From a virus, in IMG/VR virus record IMGVR_UViG_3300032954_000044, positions 1 through 39,843 of that record: 39,843 nt of DNA, one strand, 5' to 3'. Every line of letters begins with the position of its first letter. Position 1 is the stretch's first letter. Both the position numbers and the translations under genes were made by a program. This document shows, in pieces, positions 1,651 to 18,762 of this stretch. The notes under the pieces were generated by a model, which was given only the letters and a program-made list of their open reading frames with translations, did no database searches and was not told the DNA's origin.

Positions 1651-4600
1651 GCACGAACTCCTCGGTGTCGTACTGGCTGTCCCACCGGGCTGCGCCCTTG
1701 CCGATCGTGTCCTGCTGCGAGAGCAGGAGCAGCGGCAGCCCAGAGATGGCCTGGCGGGCGAATGTCCACGCCACAACGTCCATCGGGTTGCTGGCGAGGA
1801 TCACCGACCAGTCGTTCGTCCGGGTGATCTGCGGCCGCAGCTTCGAGGATCCGTATCGGGCGATCTGGTAGTTGCAGAGGTCCTGCGCGTCGGTGCAGGA
1901 CCCGGCGGGACCGTTGGTGACATCGGTCGCCCCGACGTCGACCTCGCGCGGTGCTCCAGCGGTGCGCGACAGGATCGTCGACGACGCCTGCGCCATCACC
2001 CCGACCTTCAGCGGCACCACCACTCCCGTCCCGGGCGTGATCGAGTTCGGGTTGTACTGCGCGACGGCGACCTGGTAGGTGACGTCCCGGTCGTTCTGGA
2101 GGTTCGTCACGGCCGCGAACGTCTCCGACCACGTCTGCGTGACGCCCTTCGTCACGAGCGTCTTTCGCGCGACGGAGGTGTATTTGTAATACGGCCGGTT
2201 GCGCAGGTAGGCGATGTAGTGCGCGCCGAGGTTGTCCTGGTTCAGCGTGTTGAGCGTGTCGATCGCCGACGGTCCGACGTCGCTCGTGGAGCCCGACGAG
2301 GTGCTGTACGGCGGCAGCAGGTCCGTCTCGTTCGTGTCGACCCCGCTGATCTCGGGCGGGATGTAGGGCTGCACGATCGTGCCGATCGTCAGCGAGACGT
2401 CGTCGAGCGAGATCGTCACCGCAGACGCCGAGGTGACCATCGCGAACAGGACGAGGTTCGAGCCCGCCAACTGCCCGGTGTAGGTCGTGAAGTCGGTCCG
2501 CGCCGGGGTGAACTTCACGTAGAACCGCTGCGGCGTTGTGGACAGCGTGTAGGTGGCGGACGTCCCATCCACCGATGCCACGCCCCACGGGTTCGCGATC
2601 CCGAACGCGATGGACGGCGTCCCGGTGCTCGCGGTGGCAGTGACGAGCATCGTGATCGTCTTCGCGTTCACGGGCTGCATGAACGACACGAGATGGACGC
2701 CGGAGCCTGCCGTCGCGTAGGTCGTGAACTGCGTACAGTGGGAGTGGCTGCTGATGCCCGTGGTTGACGAGACGATGGTGTTCACCTCGTCGAGCGTCTG
2801 CGGCGAGGTGATCCCGGTCCGGGCATAGGCCAGGAGCGCGCCCGGGTTCACCATGACCCCGGAGAACGTGATCTGGCCCGGGTACGATCCGACCACGGCA
2901 GAGTTCGATGCGCTCGCCCGCACGACGAACGACACGTCCGTCCGGTCGGCCACAGGGACAAACGTGATCGTCAGCCGCTGGCCCGGGTTGCCCACCGGTC
3001 CCGTGACCACGCTGAACGCGACATCCCCGCCCGCGGGTGACGCGAGCGCCACCTTGTACGTCGACGCGAGATAGCCGTCGATCTGGCTCGCCCACATCGA
3101 GCCCGTGTAGGTGTGGCCTGCCCGGAACGTCCCGGTGATCGTGAAGATCGCGGAGTTCCCGTACGCCCCCGACGCGAGCGTGAAACCCGTCCCGAAGTTG
3201 TTCGAGAGCCGTGTCTGCGTCCCGCCCTGCGCCGGGTTGTAGCCGTTGCTGATCCGGTTGAGGGTGCCGCCCGACTTGCCCTTGATCTCGGTCGTGATGA
3301 CCGCCCAGTGCGCCGATGCCGAGAGCAGGGCGGACGTGGCGAGGACCGGGAAGTCGGCCCACTGCGTCTGCATCGAACCGGCCGGCGCCAACCCGGAGAT
3401 CCGGTTCATGGCCGCGTACGGGGCGACCGCCGTGATCGTGACCCCGACATCCGCGCAGACGACCGCGTCCATCATGTGCGCCGGGCTGGCAGCCGATCCG
3501 GCGGTGGCAGCCGGGGTGATGCCGGTGCCGGTGGTCATCACCGCCGTCCCGACCGCGGCAGATCCGGCGGTCCCTCCCGTCGGGACGCCGGCGTACGCCT
3601 TCAGGATGTAGCCGAGCCCGGTATTGGCTGACCCGGCGACGGTGATCGTCAGGGCTCCTGTGGATGCCCCCGAAGTGACGAGCGCCCGGAACCGCGTGAG
3701 CCGCCGGGTCGTGCCGGAGAACTGGCCCGTGGCATGGCTCGTCCACGTCAACCCACCGCCCGACACGGTGACGGTGTTGGCGCTCGTGGCGTGGGAGTTC
3801 TCCACGTCGAGGATGTACAGGACGTTGTTCGAGTAGATCGTCGAGGGGACCGTGTAGCTCTGGGTGTCCGTGTCCGACCAGCCCGAGCCGAGGTAGGACG
3901 GGCTCGCCGCGTTGTTGCCGAAGTACGGCCCTGCCAGCGTTGTCCAGCCGGTCGTCGCCGAGACGCCTTCGGGGTTCGTGCAGCGGTTGCCCCAGCCCTG
4001 GCTGAAGATCGGGACCGCCTCGATCGACTGTCCCGGAGCTGCGTAGTTGCGCAGCCTGCCGGTCGGGGTGGCGAAGTCCACGTAGGCGGGCGGCAGGACG
4101 TAGCCCTCGGAGATCATCACCTCGTCGATGTAGATCCCGTTCGCCGGGTCGCCGCTGGTCGAGAGGAACTGGATCGAGCCCGCGTTCTGGGAGCCGGTGT
4201 TGAACCACAGCATCGAGTACCGCTGGTACGTGGTCGTCAACGCAGCGGCCGATCCCGACCCGGTGACGATCTGCCCGTAGCCCGCCGGCTGGAGGAAGAT
4301 GTCGCCGAACTGCGCGGTCAGCGAATCGGCCGCGGAGACGATGCGAGCCCGGAACGAGAGCTGGTACGGCCGTCCGACCACCATCTGCGCCTGGAGGAAC
4401 GGCGGCATCATGTAGGCCGCGCCCTGCGGTCCGGCGAGCTTGAACGACGCGGTCCCGGAATACGGGGCGGACGTGGATCGGCTCCACGACGCCGAGGTGA
4501 GCCAGCCCGACGTATCCGTCTCGGCGGAGCCGTTGATGCACAGGTTCTCCGCGCCTCCGGCAGTCTGCTGCACCCGCCGGATGGCCGCGTCGAGCAGGGC

Positions 4601-6139
4601 GTAGCGGAGCGAGTAGTGCGTCCCGCCCCCGGTGATCGTGACGTCGACCGGCTGGTTCAGGTTCGCCAGGGCGTCATAGATGACGAGCGCGACCCGCTGG
4701 TCATCCGGGGTCGGGGTGGCGCGTTGGGCGTAGCCGTGGAACAGCGCGTAGTCGGTCGCCGAGTACGTGGCGAAGAGGTGGAACGGCAGCGCGTCCTGGA
4801 GCATCGGCCACGTCGGCGCTTCGATGTAGGCGTTCGCGGATGACCCGGCGTTCACCTGGAACTCGTCGAAGCCCACGACGGCCGAGGCGGCCGAGGTCGT
4901 GCGGATGAAGCACACGAGGTCCTTGCGGTCGGCCGTGACCGTCAGCGTGGCCGTGGGCGTGCCGTAGGAGCCGCTGATCGTCCCGCCTGACGAGGCGAGG
5001 TCGGATGGCGTGCCCATTGACGCGATGCCGACCTCGACGTGGGCGTTGCCGGAGATCGACTTCAGCTTCGCGGCGATGGTGATCGACTGGCCGCTCGCGA
5101 CCGTGCATTCGATCGGGAACCAGACCATCGAGTTGATGGTCCCCGAGAGCGACACCTGCCCGGAGTACGTCCCGCCGCCCGAGGCCGGATCCTTCTTCCA
5201 TGCGAGCGACGTTCCTGCTGCCCCGATCGAGGCGATCGCCGTGAGGTTCAGGTCGTGCAGCCCGAACTCCATCGACGGGTTGGGCGCGAGGTTGCGGTTC
5301 TGGGTCCAGAACTTGTCGGTGTTCGTCAGGGTCAGGTCGAGCTCGCCGACCTGCGTGTTGCTGCGGTCGAAGTTCATGCCCCGCGTGCGCTGGCCGTTCT
5401 CGATCCGGACCGACGCGAAGGAATCCATCGGCGCGCCGAACTCGCCCATGGCGAACGCGACGTAGAGCTGGGACGCCCGGACCGACGACCACTGGGTCGT
5501 GTCGTAGAACAGCTCGCCGAAGGTGGCGCTGCTGAACGAGCTGCCGGCGGAGTTCTGGCCGACGTACAGGGCCGTCGCAGTGCTGGTGCAGGTCTGGTTG
5601 CTGATCGAGCCCGTGACGTCGGTGTCGTCGATGTAGATGAAGATGGACGACCCGGACTTCGCCACCATCCAGAAGTGCGCGCTGGTGTCGAGCGTCGCCG
5701 TGGAGCTGACGATGTCGGCGGTGCCGAACTTCTCCAGGTGGATCTTGTTGTCCGTGCCGACGTAGATCCCGAACGCGCCGGTGCCCTTGCAGCACAGGTA
5801 TTGCTTCGACCCTGTCGCGGCGAGCTTCACCACCCCGCCGACCGTGAAGGTGTCGCCTGCATCGAGGCTGTTGGCGTCGGGGACGCTCATGTAGCCGGTC
5901 GAGCCGTTGAACTTGACATCGGTCGACGTGTCCTCGAACAGCAAGCCCGTCTGCCCGAGCGAGAACCCGCCCGCGTAGGTGCCGTGGTTGCCGTTCAGCC
6001 GGTCGAACGCGATCGTCCCCGCGGCCTCGTTGAAGCGCCAGTAGCCGCCTGACGGCAGGAACGAGACGACCAGGTCCTCCCACGCCTTCTTCCGCACGAA
6101 GTTGGCCCGGCAGGTCATCGTCGGGGCCGGGAGCGTCAC
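1643..6139 (-). CDS. Large minor tail / tail-tip protein with LamG-like and CBM-like domains
   Basis: 1498 residues, GTG start overlapping the tape-measure stop as GTGA. Residues ~30-225 form a concanavalin-A/LamG-like jelly-roll (GYWRFNEAAGT, YMSVPDANSLDAG, IYIDDTDVTG), a fold used for binding glycans. Residues ~240-300 (SVRIENGQRTRGMNF, LDLTLTNTDKFW) resemble the hub-type region of phage tail-tip proteins. At least three later segments begin like galactose-binding/CBM modules (NLAPNPSMEFG, NLCINGSAETDTSGW, NRCTNPEGVSATTGW). The last ~250 residues are a structured, less repetitive domain with two Cys close together (SCTDAQDLC). Position directly after the tape measure places it at the tail tip, probably combining hub and receptor-binding functions. 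The domain calls are by pattern only. Confidence 0.82.
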   Translation of the reverse strand: MTLPAPTMTCRANFVRKKAWEDLVVSFLPSGGYWRFNEAAGTIAFDRLNGNHGTYAGGFSLGQTGLLFEDTSTDVKFNGSTGYMSVPDANSLDAGDTFTVGGVVKLAATGSKQYLCCKGTGAFGIYVGTDNKIHLEKFGTADIVSSTATLDTSAHFWMVAKSGSSIFIYIDDTDVTGSISNQTCTSTATALYVGQNSAGSSFSSATFGELFYDTTQWSSVRASQLYVAFAMGEFGAPMDSFASVRIENGQRTRGMNFDRSNTQVGELDLTLTNTDKFWTQNRNLAPNPSMEFGLHDLNLTAIASIGAAGTSLAWKKDPASGGGTYSGQVSLSGTINSMVWFPIECTVASGQSITIAAKLKSISGNAHVEVGIASMGTPSDLASSGGTISGSYGTPTATLTVTADRKDLVCFIRTTSAASAVVGFDEFQVNAGSSANAYIEAPTWPMLQDALPFHLFATYSATDYALFHGYAQRATPTPDDQRVALVIYDALANLNQPVDVTITGGGTHYSLRYALLDAAIRRVQQTAGGAENLCINGSAETDTSGWLTSASWSRSTSAPYSGTASFKLAGPQGAAYMMPPFLQAQMVVGRPYQLSFRARIVSAADSLTAQFGDIFLQPAGYGQIVTGSGSAAALTTTYQRYSMLWFNTGSQNAGSIQFLSTSGDPANGIYIDEVMISEGYVLPPAYVDFATPTGRLRNYAAPGQSIEAVPIFSQGWGNRCTNPEGVSATTGWTTLAGPYFGNNAASPSYLGSGWSDTDTQSYTVPSTIYSNNVLYILDVENSHATSANTVTVSGGGLTWTSHATGQFSGTTRRLTRFRALVTSGASTGALTITVAGSANTGLGYILKAYAGVPTGGTAGSAAVGTAVMTTGTGITPAATAGSAASPAHMMDAVVCADVGVTITAVAPYAAMNRISGLAPAGSMQTQWADFPVLATSALLSASAHWAVITTEIKGKSGGTLNRISNGYNPAQGGTQTRLSNNFGTGFTLASGAYGNSAIFTITGTFRAGHTYTGSMWASQIDGYLASTYKVALASPAGGDVAFSVVTGPVGNPGQRLTITFVPVADRTDVSFVVRASASNSAVVGSYPGQITFSGVMVNPGALLAYARTGITSPQTLDEVNTIVSSTTGISSHSHCTQFTTYATAGSGVHLVSFMQPVNAKTITMLVTATASTGTPSIAFGIANPWGVASVDGTSATYTLSTTPQRFYVKFTPARTDFTTYTGQLAGSNLVLFAMVTSASAVTISLDDVSLTIGTIVQPYIPPEISGVDTNETDLLPPYSTSSGSTSDVGPSAIDTLNTLNQDNLGAHYIAYLRNRPYYKYTSVARKTLVTKGVTQTWSETFAAVTNLQNDRDVTYQVAVAQYNPNSITPGTGVVVPLKVGVMAQASSTILSRTAGAPREVDVGATDVTNGPAGSCTDAQDLCNYQIARYGSSKLRPQITRTNDWSVILASNPMDVVAWTFARQAISGLPLLLLSQQDTIGKGAARWDSQYDTEEFVRA

Positions 6140-8703: not shown

Positions 8704-9391
8704 CAGTCGGCCCAGCCGGTCGGCTCAGGCTCGGGGCGGATCGTTCCCTCGGCGGCCTCGCGCATGACCGCGTAGATCACGTTCCGCCAGCGCATGACGC
8801 CCGACGGCGTGTCGAGATACTCGCGAACCTGCGTGTAGGTCCAGTCGCGGCGGACCATCAGCCACGCTTCCTGGAGCTGCGGCGGCCATTGAGGGTCGAC
8901 GGTGATGAGGTCGTCGGCGAGCCGCTCCCCGATGGACCCCCACCAGCGTTTGGGTCCGGCGCCCCTTCGGCGAGCGCCCGACGGCAGCCCTGGATCAGTT
9001 CGTCGCCATCACGCTTGGAGAGTCGCCCGAGATCGTCGGGGAACGAGAGTTGCTCCTGCGTGCGGGGATCGCGGACGTTCTCCCAGCCGGACAGGCTGAT
9101 CGCGAGTTCCTGCTGCCGCTGGAGGAAGGCGAAGTCCGCCGCCTCCTCGATGTCCGCCCGCGACAGGGTGATCTCGGGTTCCGGTCCGACCGGGATGCCC
9201 TCGGTCACGTCCCGTTCGCGGCGCCGGATCTCGCGCAGGCGTTCGAGGGATGCCGTGGGCTCCGCCATCGCCACGACGTGCGCCCGGCGGAAGTCGTCCT
9301 GCCAGCGCAGCTCGCGCCACGCCCACGCACGTCCGCCGCTGGTCAGGGGGATCAGGACGGTTGCCTGATCGGTCTGGGTCGCTTCCTGCAC
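8703..9391 (-). CDS. Tail assembly chaperone, -1 frameshift fusion (G-GT type)
   Basis: Predicted product when ribosomes slip by -1 at 8948-8954: 148 codons of the upstream frame (9391-8948) followed by 81 codons plus stop (8948-8703), 229 residues in all. The second part has no start of its own and reads as a good protein: RWWGSIGERLADDL, VDPQWPPQLQEAWLM, YTQVREYLDTPSGVM. Its TGA overlaps the tape-measure ATG. In siphophages a pair of chaperones made by such a shift coats the tape measure before tube polymerisation (lambda G and GT). The frame relation, the heptamer and the position all agree; only the shift itself is unproved. Confidence 0.82.
8858..9391 (-). CDS. Tail assembly chaperone, unshifted product (G type)
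   Basis: 177 residues from a GTG at 9391 (preceded by AGAGG) to TGA at 8858. It is mostly helical and charged: SLERLREIRRRERD, RADIEEAADFAFLQRQQELA, RTQEQLSFPDDLGRL. The final ~30 residues after PDPNAGG are Gly/Ser/Pro/Arg-rich and look like out-of-frame translation of the second chaperone frame, as expected for the unshifted form. It lies between the major tail protein and the tape measure, the usual place for G-type chaperones. Confidence 0.85.
   Translation of the reverse strand: MQEATQTDQATVLIPLTSGGRAWAWRELRWQDDFRRAHVVAMAEPTASLERLREIRRRERDVTEGIPVGPEPEITLSRADIEEAADFAFLQRQQELAISLSGWENVRDPRTQEQLSFPDDLGRLSKRDGDELIQGCRRALAEGAPDPNAGGGPSGSGSPTTSSPSTLNGRRSSRKRG
8948..8954 (-). promoter_or_regulatory. 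Programmed -1 frameshift heptamer CCCAAAC in tail chaperone
   Basis: In the zero frame the codons are GAC CCA AAC, so the site reads C CCA AAC, an exact X XXY YYZ slippery heptamer. A -1 slip re-pairs CCA with CCC and AAC with AAA and continues as CGC TGG TGG in the second chaperone frame. The downstream sequence is very GC-rich with a five-G run, but I could not settle on one stimulatory structure. Confidence 0.8.
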
Positions 9392-16270: not shown

Positions 16271-16957
16271 CTACTGAGGCGACGTCACGTCGTCGGGGTT
16301 GACATCGGCCGAGTCGAGCGCGGTTGCCGAGCGGCCACAGTTCGGGTGTTGCAGCGGGTTCGCCTCGTAGTCGTCGAGCGTCCAGATCGCCCCGTCGGCG
16401 GCCACGCACTCCGGGTCGAAGTTCTCGCCGTCGGTGATCTGGACGTACTGGATGCCGGAGTCGCGGAACCCCGCCACCTGTCCACCCGCAGCGGCGAGCG
16501 AGGTTTCCGTCCGGGCGATCATGTCGGCGCGCCAGTCCGCCTCGTCGTCGAACATCTGCCCGATGTCGTCGCCGAGCTGCTCCTGCGTCACGTCCGGATC
16601 GGCCATGGCATCCGCGACGATGTGCGCCATGTGCTCGCGGTCCGCGGCGGAGATGCCCGCCACGAGTTCGCCCGCGTGCTGGCGCGCCCATGCCGCGGCG
16701 CGGTCGTTGGGCAGTGAGAAGCCCTGCGCGAGCAGCGCCGACGCGGCGTTCTGGTAGCCGAGCGAGTACATCACCGCGAGAAGCTCTGCGGTTGGGTCAG
16801 CGAGGACGGCGACGTCCTGGCCCCACGGATATCCGGCCGTAGCGTCGATGGGTAGAGCGGCCTTGCTGACCCCGTGCGCACGTCGAGCGCCGTCGGCGAG
16901 GGCGTGGAAGTGGGCCGACCAGAGGTCGCGGAGCTTCCGGCGGACGCCGGCGCGGGT
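16271..16957 (-). CDS. MuF-type minor head protein, expressed as -1 frameshift fusion to portal
   Basis: The frame from 16957 to TAG at 16271 encodes 228 residues. The C-terminal half is the MuF pattern: MIARTETSLAAAGGQVAGF, DPECVAADGAIW, NPLQHPNCGRS. The N-terminal part also reads as protein (GVRRKLRDLWSAHFHALADG, PWGQDVAVLADPTAELLAV) yet contains no ATG or GTG until 16777-16774, inside the domain. It is in the -1 frame of the portal, and a perfect slippery heptamer lies at 16957-16963. The full product would be portal residues 1-602 plus these 228, 830 residues. A shorter separate protein from 16774 (167 residues) is the fallback. MuF proteins act inside the capsid at the portal. Confidence 0.78.
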   Translation of the reverse strand, partial: TRAGVRRKLRDLWSAHFHALADGARRAHGVSKAALPIDATAGYPWGQDVAVLADPTAELLAVMYSLGYQNAASALLAQGFSLPNDRAAAWARQHAGELVAGISAADREHMAHIVADAMADPDVTQEQLGDDIGQMFDDEADWRADMIARTETSLAAAGGQVAGFRDSGIQYVQITDGENFDPECVAADGAIWTLDDYEANPLQHPNCGRSATALDSADVNPDDVTSPQ

Positions 16958-18762
16958 AAAGGGCTGGCGGCTGCACCCGCTTTCGCGAGGGTGAAGGCCG
17001 CTCGCACGTCTTCGGGCGTCGTTGACTTCGCCAGCGCGAATCCGATCTGCTCGACAACGTCATCTGCGATCGCATCCGACGTGAACCGGACGGCGGGCGA
17101 ACGGCCTTCCTTCATGGCCCGGAGCGCCTTGCGCTGCCACGCGGCCAGTTCTGCGGCCTTGCCGACGGGCGTCGGGGCGCCCTTGGGCTGACCACCGGGT
17201 GCGTTCTTGTCGGCCACGGCAGGCTCGCCCGGCTTCGTCTCCCCGGTGTTCTCGCCGGGTGCGCCGGACGGCGTCTCGGGCGGCTTGCCGTCCGGCGTCT
17301 CGACCGTCGCTCCGCCGGCCATCAGCTCCGACACGAGCACCGGACCCTGCGCGGTCGAGACGTACGCTTCCTTGAGCCCGGGCGGATCCTCGTCGATGCT
17401 CTCAGCCACCGTGTCGCCGCTGACCACGCCGAGGTTCATGTAGATCTGGTTGACCTGCGCCTCGACCAGACGGTCCTTGCCCTGGTCGAGGTCCTCGAAC
17501 CACAGTTCGAGCTCCGGCTGGCCGAGCGCCTGCGCGATGACGATGTCGAGCAGGCCCTTGAGGTGGAGGGCCGGGTTGCGGACGGAGCGGATGAACTCGA
17601 CGTCCTGGCTGACCTCGGCATCGCCCTTGCCGGATGTCACACCACCGCGCGAGGTCACGAAGCCCAGCGACCGCGGGTTCACGCCGTACGCGGCACAGGT
17701 GATGTGCATCAGCCATTCCTCGGCGTCGGTCGTGACATCGGGGTTCATCTGCTGGACGGCGTTGGTGCCGTTCGAGGCCGACGGGATGGGGATGACGCGG
17801 GACCGGGTGACGTCGTTGCCGGCGAGCAGGGCGTCGAGGTATTCGCGCAGTTCCTTGATCTGGGTCATGTCCCAGTTCTCGGGCGCTCGCAGGAACGCGG
17901 CGGGCAGCGTGCCCTCGGTGAACCGCGACAGGTCGAGCGTCTGCCGCCGCAGCGCCCGGTTGGCGGTCATCAGGACCCACTCGGCGGGCGGCGAGCCGTA
18001 GGGACTGCGAGACGTCTGCCAGTACGGCGCCGAGAGGATCTGGTTCTTCGGCCACCACCCCGACGGGAAGCCGCGGATCACCTGGATGTACGCGGGATCG
18101 GGCGGATCGGGCAGTCGGCCCCACTCGTCGACGATCGGGTAGATCGTCGTCCCGTCCACCACTTCGAGGCCGTACAACTGGCCGGCGAGGGTCGGACGGA
18201 GGAACAGGGTCGCGGAGTCGGTGGTGAAGAGGTCGTGCGCCCACTGCACGAGCCATGCGCCCCACGGGTCCTCCTGGTTGGGCGTCAGGAAGAAGCCGGT
18301 GACGTCGTTGATGGCGGACTCGAGCTTGGCGCCGCGTGCCTTCGCCTCGGCGCGCGACTGGCCGGTCACCTGCCGCGGACGGATCGACCACGTCAGCGAG
18401 CGCAGGTCGTCCTTGCGCTTCTCGATGCACAGGCGGGCGATGTCGTAGTTCTCGGCGAACGCCCGCAGCGTCGGGAAGTCGAGCCCCTCGTACTTGCGGG
18501 GCTGCGTGCTGATGTTGTAGCCGGGGACGTAGTCCCAGCGGCGCGGCGCCTCTTCCTCGGTGCGGACCGGTGTGACCGGCGATCCCGGGCCGAGGTTGGC
18601 GAGCGAGGCATCCCCGCCCAACTGGCGGGACAGTTGCGCCAGCGAGGTCGTCGTGACCGGCGGCTCTCCGACGGGCACCGGACCCTTGGCGAGGTTGCCG
18701 CCGGCGCGCAGCCATGCGGTGTAGTCGCGCGAGTTCATGCGGCGCGGATCGGTGGCGATCAT
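16771..18762 (-). CDS. Portal protein
   Basis: 663 residues in the unshifted frame, ATG overlapping the terminase stop (ATGA). Portal-type features: FPTLRAFAENYDIARLCIEKRKDDLRSL, FFLTPNQEDPW, FTTDSATLFLRP, VVDGTTIYPIVDEWG, LTANRALRRQT-type loop near residue 230, and EEWLMHITCAAYGVNPRSLGF. Portals form the dodecameric DNA channel at one capsid vertex. Residues ~480-545 are a Pro/Gly/Glu-rich linker and ~545-600 a helical segment. Residues 603-663 are Ser/Pro/Thr/Arg-rich and look like out-of-frame reading of the MuF coding sequence, supporting the frameshift at codons 601-602. Confidence 0.9.
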   Translation of the reverse strand: MIATDPRRMNSRDYTAWLRAGGNLAKGPVPVGEPPVTTTSLAQLSRQLGGDASLANLGPGSPVTPVRTEEEAPRRWDYVPGYNISTQPRKYEGLDFPTLRAFAENYDIARLCIEKRKDDLRSLTWSIRPRQVTGQSRAEAKARGAKLESAINDVTGFFLTPNQEDPWGAWLVQWAHDLFTTDSATLFLRPTLAGQLYGLEVVDGTTIYPIVDEWGRLPDPPDPAYIQVIRGFPSGWWPKNQILSAPYWQTSRSPYGSPPAEWVLMTANRALRRQTLDLSRFTEGTLPAAFLRAPENWDMTQIKELREYLDALLAGNDVTRSRVIPIPSASNGTNAVQQMNPDVTTDAEEWLMHITCAAYGVNPRSLGFVTSRGGVTSGKGDAEVSQDVEFIRSVRNPALHLKGLLDIVIAQALGQPELELWFEDLDQGKDRLVEAQVNQIYMNLGVVSGDTVAESIDEDPPGLKEAYVSTAQGPVLVSELMAGGATVETPDGKPPETPSGAPGENTGETKPGEPAVADKNAPGGQPKGAPTPVGKAAELAAWQRKALRAMKEGRSPAVRFTSDAIADDVVEQIGFALAKSTTPEDVRAAFTLAKAGAAASPLPAPASAGSSATSGRPTSTPSPTALDVRTGSARPLYPSTLRPDIRGARTSPSSLTQPQSFSR
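16937..16963 (-). promoter_or_regulatory. Programmed -1 frameshift signal CCCTTTA plus hairpin (portal-MuF)
   Basis: In the portal frame codons 601-602 are CCT TTA preceded by AGC, so the site reads C CCT TTA, an exact X XXY YYZ heptamer (16963-16957). A 6-nt spacer follows (16956-16951), then a perfect palindrome CCGGCG / CGCCGG (16950-16937). Spacing of 5-9 nt to a stable hairpin is the usual design of bacterial -1 shift sites. The TTA leucine codon is itself unusual in DNA this rich in GC. Confidence 0.72.

Follow-up and report, generated by a model that had tools for sequence, protein, structure and literature searches.

A -1 frameshift yields the tail assembly chaperone pair gpG and gpG-T of phage lambda (Xu, Hendrix and Duda 2004, cited in PMC6316719). 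The portal locus described here resembles this system in that an in-phase heptamer lies near the 3' end of a morphogenesis gene, where it would give a minority product a -1 C-terminal extension. However, the lambda pair consists of tail chaperones, whereas the genes concerned here encode a portal and a MuF protein, both head proteins of the virion. The lambda G/GT frameshift was thus rejected as the identity of the portal site. Frameshift-extended structural proteins are known from Lactobacillus phage A2, the T3/T7 coat protein, the Listeria phages PSA, A118 and A500, and SPP1 (gp17.1*), as listed in the accessible part of a frameshifting review (PMC5009743), in which the word 'portal' does not appear. 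In these phages recoding likewise adds a C-terminal domain to a minority of the structural copies. The extended proteins are capsid or tail-tube subunits and the added domains are often Ig-like, whereas here the 12-mer portal would gain a MuF domain.

The combination of portal and MuF in one protein is not new in itself. In-frame portal-MuF fusions are found among the members of phrog_2662, a family that is related to the portal studied here and includes proteins of the Arthrobacter phages Sonali and Mufasa8, the Brevundimonas phages Polewnik and Strzyga, and Thermoanaerobacterium phage THSA-485A. They have also been described as unusual in the Microbacterium phages of clusters EA3, EA5, EA8 and EB (PMC7302621). 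Domain content and order agree with the fusion proposed here, but these proteins use a single reading frame and offer no control of the ratio; every portal subunit should therefore carry MuF. In two Arthrobacter fusions (L004:2134-5133 and L006:2144-5128) an extra stretch is present between the domains, and the RefSeq record of Mufasa8 labels its portal-MuF protein as a MutT/NUDIX hydrolase. A different solution is used by SPP1, where the portal gp6 binds gp7 and thereby brings a few copies of it into the procapsid (PMC6316719). There, a MuF-type protein likewise enters the procapsid by binding to the portal, in a few copies, but it is encoded by a second gene and the link is non-covalent. No description of frameshifting or recoding between portal and MuF was found in open-licence PMC papers; the subscription literature lies outside this scope, and such absence is no proof. 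The first-pass annotation had stated that a canonical recoding signal joining the two was not known. This agrees with the open-licence literature, with the qualification that the one-polypeptide form is already on record. The new part appears to be the making of the fusion by recoding.

The window (the whole stretch of viral DNA that was analysed, 39,843 nucleotides) carries on its minus strand, in this order, the terminase (20084-18759), the portal (18762-16771), MuF and further structural genes. The portal ORF has a length of 663 amino acids. Direct inspection of the sequence confirmed the heptamer C CCT TTA (16957-16963, of the type X XXY YYZ) in the phase of the portal, followed by a 6-nt spacer (16956-16951). 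Upstream of the shift point lies the portal part common to both products (16957-18762, 602 amino acids, PF04860-like). Downstream of it, the unshifted frame continues for 61 low-complexity Ser/Pro/Arg codons (16771-16956) and ends at TGA, while the -1 frame encodes the MuF domain (16271-16957, 228 amino acids plus stop). The predicted ORF lengths give the 830 residues (602 + 228) that had been calculated for the fusion, next to the 663-residue portal. Both frames, the boundary between them and the heptamer with its phase are read directly from the DNA. Around 17000-16960 the GC phase leaves the 0 frame and follows the -1 frame. The closest upstream stop in the MuF frame is found 34 codons before the shift, and from there no ATG, GTG or TTG occurs in this frame until the GTG at 16774, 61 codons past the heptamer, as the first-pass annotation had noted. 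The downstream ORF is thus open in the -1 frame and has no nearby start of its own. From this arrangement and the evidence below, a programmed -1 ribosomal frameshift (PRF) in the portal gene very probably adds MuF to some of the portal copies.

The protein evidence changes frame at the same point. The portal matches phrog_2662 ('portal protein') over profile positions 26-473 (E 9.7e-42), which places it in the portal family; the match to PF04860 (E 6.6e-07) reaches 29.3 bits, under the gathering cut-off of 39.1. The -1 product matches the same phrog_2662 profile at positions 491-678 (E 1.9e-14), starting from its residue 8. Since portal and -1 product match one profile, the ancestral or a sister form is a single portal-MuF chain. 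The -1 product also matches phrog_2468 ('head morphogenesis', E 1.4e-07) and, below the gathering score, PF04233 (MuF, phage Mu gpF-like; E 4.4e-04, 21.4 bits where the cut-off is 29.6). Because of the latter, MuF was assigned on the PHROG profile and the fold only. A Foldseek search of the predicted structure against the BFVD viral models matched models of minor capsid proteins and of head morphogenesis proteins (probability 1.00). By profile and predicted fold, the -1 product is accordingly classed with the broader group of MuF or minor head proteins. A search of the PDB with Foldseek and VIA-align retrieved helical bundles (best Z 7.3) and no MuF relative, so no solved relative was identified. 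A MuF polymorphic toxin was considered as well and rejected: no toxin domain was found C-terminal to MuF, as the -1 ORF stops about 20 residues past the last Pfam MuF match.

In the AlphaFold models, the portal is ordered to about residue 596, with a helix at 583-595, and the 0-frame tail (residues 597 to 663) has a pLDDT of about 30. The -1 product is a folded protein in its model (pLDDT 88). It is folded from the second residue onwards, with a first helix at 2-26 and an average of 96 over the first ten residues. At the heptamer, the GC phase, the protein homology and the predicted order thus all switch frame, which supports a frameshift.

These data also bear on the simplest alternative, in which portal and MuF are two coupled genes: the portal stops at its TGA, MuF re-initiates at the overlapping GTG 16774, and the open stretch upstream is incidental. 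A GTGA overlap (16771-16774) is indeed present in the window, where re-initiation would give a 167-residue MuF, and it recurs in three related phages (at 6071 in L010, 6031 in L090 and 8356 in L370). Furthermore, coupled overlaps without a heptamer exist among more distant relatives (ATGA in L129, GTGA in L074 and TTGA in L227). However, a start at this GTG would cut the predicted helix 49-71 of the -1 product and lose helix 2-26 altogether, and the homology to phrog_2662 precedes the GTG, beginning 6-8 residues past the heptamer. At this base composition, a G ahead of a TGA stop should be about an even chance. The GTG is placed 61 codons past the heptamer in the window and 29, 34 and 38 codons past it in the relatives; as this distance varies between phages, the GTG marks no domain boundary. 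The preserved CCCTTTA and its unique TTA (see below) would also be left unexplained. The ordinary GTGA start was therefore rejected as the sole route to MuF, and we consider the coupled-gene reading very unlikely. An ordinary separate start had been named beforehand as an observation that would speak against recoding; it does not fit a junction with a conserved CCCTTTA and no start codon near it.

A combined arrangement fares somewhat better. Here, the frameshift fusion would be accompanied by a free MuF re-initiated at GTGA, giving two MuF forms. The GTG overlies the TGA in all four phages with CCCTTTA despite the varying overlap (chance about 1 in 16), so re-initiation could occur too. Against this, no Shine-Dalgarno-like sequence is evident ahead of the GTG, the start cuts a predicted helix, and in the distant relative L080 the codon over the portal stop is TTA, which is no start. 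Production of both forms is judged unlikely.

The frameshift reading gains most from the comparison with related phages. L010 and L090, two phages from metagenomes whose portals are about 50% identical to that of the window, were located through searches of viral contigs with the terminase and capsid proteins of the window. When MuF or portal alone served as the query against viral contigs, no close kin was returned, and a profile search of genome contigs with the alignment of close relatives found nothing. Both phages encode MuF in the -1 frame and carry CCCTTTA, unaltered, at the same aligned position. A DNA pattern was then built from the three sites and run on 2.9 million viral contigs. 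It matched six of them, namely L010, L090, the new contig L370 and three contigs unrelated to the portal (L369, L371 and L372, two of them near-identical), which were dismissed. L370, also a metagenomic phage, has a portal about 40% identical to that of the window and the same junction, its MuF being in the -1 frame (E 5e-138 for the portal and 4e-48 for MuF). The much more distant L080 likewise shows the -1 layout and an in-phase CCCTTTA at the junction, with an A run lying farther upstream.

The 39.8 kb of the window contain a single CCCTTTA when both strands are scanned, and in L010, L090 and L370 it is again found once per sequence stretch, on one strand only. Apart from the TTA of the heptamer, none of the Leu codons in the predicted genes is TTA (746 Leu codons in the window, 203 in L010, 357 in L090 and 167 in L370). 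With Leu codons chosen according to usage, TTA would stand at all four sites with a joint chance of about 1e-10, a rough figure since the four are related. As the heptamer is single and its TTA unique, it is the nucleotides and not the amino acids that are preserved. The alignment with relatives proposed in the first-pass annotation thus came out in its favour. Heptamer and phase are observed to be conserved in L010, L090, L370 and L080, beyond what protein-level constraint explains, with a unique TTA in the window, L010, L090 and L370. In L090 and L370 a stop in the MuF frame is found 5 codons ahead of the shift. The 0-frame tails of the three closer relatives (29, 34 and 38 codons, compared to 61 in the window) share no similarity. 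Codon-position divergence in the short portal/MuF overlap was saturated.

The same comparison addresses whether the junction is a broken in-frame fusion, with a one-base indel introduced by sequencing, assembly or mutation. In favour of this, the family has many single-frame fusions (75 of the 202 non-redundant ORFs, see below). However, the same -1 layout and heptamer position is shared by four contigs whose IMG/VR prefixes differ and whose portals are 40-50% identical, and tails of unequal length, all unconserved, follow the same switch point. Sequencing error and pseudogene were rejected, as the layout is common to independent contigs. The indel that the first-pass annotation had listed as a possible refutation does not fit these contigs, and such a break is extremely improbable. 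Taken together, sequencing error, a pseudogene and an ordinary MuF start are poor explanations because the relatives share the layout, the TTA is unique and the predicted order switches at the site.

Several observations count against a frameshift, among them the GTG over the portal stop and the downstream hairpin at background level (see below). L191, the sister of L370, has its MuF outside the portal gene, where it starts at an ATG of its own behind two intervening ORFs (1654-5654); CCCTTTA is absent from L191. The portal-MuF linkage would therefore be useful but replaceable. No isolated phage with the layout of the window was found. The PRF cases come from metagenomes, as viral contigs or MAGs, while the isolates of this portal family are in-frame portal-MuF fusions.

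Two elements around the heptamer were considered as candidate stimulators. A Shine-Dalgarno-like GGTG (16974-16977) lies 10 nt upstream, a spacing of an upstream Shine-Dalgarno-like sequence that favours -1 slippage. Exactly this spacing is common to the window, L010 and L090, where it was seen before its use as a pattern; the GGTG of L370 is found by construction of the pattern search. The shared Gly codon GGT makes up about 10-11% of Gly codons in the window, L010 and L090. The second element is the GC-rich inverted repeat CCGGCG-TC-CGCCGG (16937-16950), 6 nt after the heptamer. Because its arms are just 2 nt apart, the stem that forms has 5 bp and a loop of 4 nt. A perfect hairpin had been reported at this position. 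The repeat is present, but its folding does not rise above background: its energy is no better than that of dinucleotide shuffles (z -0.03) and falls at the 18th-34th percentile of other stretches of the same genes. The downstream fold stays at background level in the window, L010, L090 and L370 alike (|z| below 0.6); in L080 a downstream hairpin reaches z -2.6. As candidate stimulators, GGTG and the rare TTA are likelier than the hairpin.

Most likely, then, a conserved slippery spot makes some of the ribosomes switch frame. The majority would read C CCT TTA in frame, continue through the unconserved disordered tail and stop at 16771, yielding the 663-residue portal. Others would stall with the very rare TTA in the A site, perhaps aided by the upstream GGTG and the GC-rich structure downstream; the GGUG of the message may pair with CCAC of the anti-Shine-Dalgarno region. 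The two tRNAs would then slip one base back, onto CCC and TTT. By comparison with known recoding, the tRNA-Pro on CCU would re-pair with CCC and the tRNA-Leu on UUA with UUU. The shifted ribosomes would read MuF directly and produce the 830-residue portal, whose C-terminal MuF should face the capsid interior. We infer that slippage occurs at a useful frequency, that stimulators contribute to it, and that mixed portal rings with a few MuF copies result. The proposal of the first-pass annotation that a few of the 12 subunits carry MuF would suit such rings. By analogy with SPP1, the fraction of fusion would set the number of MuF copies through translation.

Polymerase stutter could in principle produce the same fusion at the level of the transcript. 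The longest run of identical bases in CCCTTTA is 3, so slippage of the polymerase is not expected there, and the X XXY YYZ phase preserved in all four phages also speaks for the ribosome. Transcriptional slippage could operate at the runs of 8-9 A that many relatives carry at the junction. At CCCTTTA itself, it was rejected for want of a homopolymer and has next to no probability.

How widely portal and MuF are linked in this manner was surveyed in 296 portal ORFs (202 non-redundant), with MuF sought within 2.5 kb. Among the non-redundant ORFs, 75 are in-frame fusions, the commonest linked state among the relatives. MuF lies in the -1 frame in 36, in the +1 frame in 10 and separately in the same frame in 3; for the remainder no MuF was detected within 2.5 kb or the sequence was cut. 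A strong in-phase heptamer with AAA or TTT as YYY was counted by script in 29 of the 32 overlapping -1 junctions, including CCCTTTG in L300, which was judged spurious by eye. The other three are the coupled ATGA, GTGA or TTGA genes. None of the 9 overlapping +1 junctions has an in-phase heptamer, and neither do most of the portals without MuF (17 of 75 do, with longer regions scanned); the Fisher p values of these comparisons are 6e-7 and 3e-11, respectively. The majority of the heptamers read A AAA AAG or A AAA AAC. Placing the PRF label on a portal tree with 123 rows takes 17 changes, of which well-supported branches force at least 12. One clade of 7 is entirely PRF, and a single supported set holds the window together with L010, L090, L370 and L191. 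Single cases with A runs may include assembly errors or transcriptional slippage, but assembly error is no explanation for the two PRF clusters on the tree.

It is about an even bet, in our judgement, that -1 frameshifting from portal into MuF represents a widespread and undescribed assembly strategy that fixes how many of the 12 subunits bear MuF, and that has been repeatedly gained and lost relative to in-frame fusion and separate genes. In GC-rich phages, its driver would be a lone, otherwise avoided TTA, and the ratio could follow the supply of host tRNA-Leu(UAA). The reason for MuF proteins at the portal vertex and their copy number are poorly understood. With a covalent MuF on a set fraction of portals, copy number and ring asymmetry could be tested by mutating one heptamer. 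Present annotation of such phages lacks the fusion protein and leaves out the N terminus of MuF. Recoding in phages, known from capsid, tail and chaperone genes, would extend to the portal.

Some further arrangements were seen in the survey. In L198 (3415-3500), L119, L165, L181, L185, L257, L276 and L287, the portal is overlapped by a MuF in the +1 frame. The shift point of L198 would be CGG TGA C, which resembles known +1 sites, while the other +1 cases may have their own starts. A long intein-like insert follows directly after the HPNC motif of the MuF ORF in L092 (4059-6401), with Hint-type ends and a terminal HNC as judged by eye. L125:4138-8502 and L127:654-3959 are single-frame portal ORFs of about 1450 and 1100 codons in which no MuF was detected. 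Finally, the window itself contains a second candidate site, which was counted in favour of frameshifting. An in-phase C CCA AAC (8954-8948, minus strand) lies ahead of a likely tape measure gene, the two ORFs concerned end at 8858 and 8703, and from the site the -1 frame runs about 80 codons into the next ORF. From its sequence and position, it looks like a tail chaperone frameshift of the lambda G/GT type.
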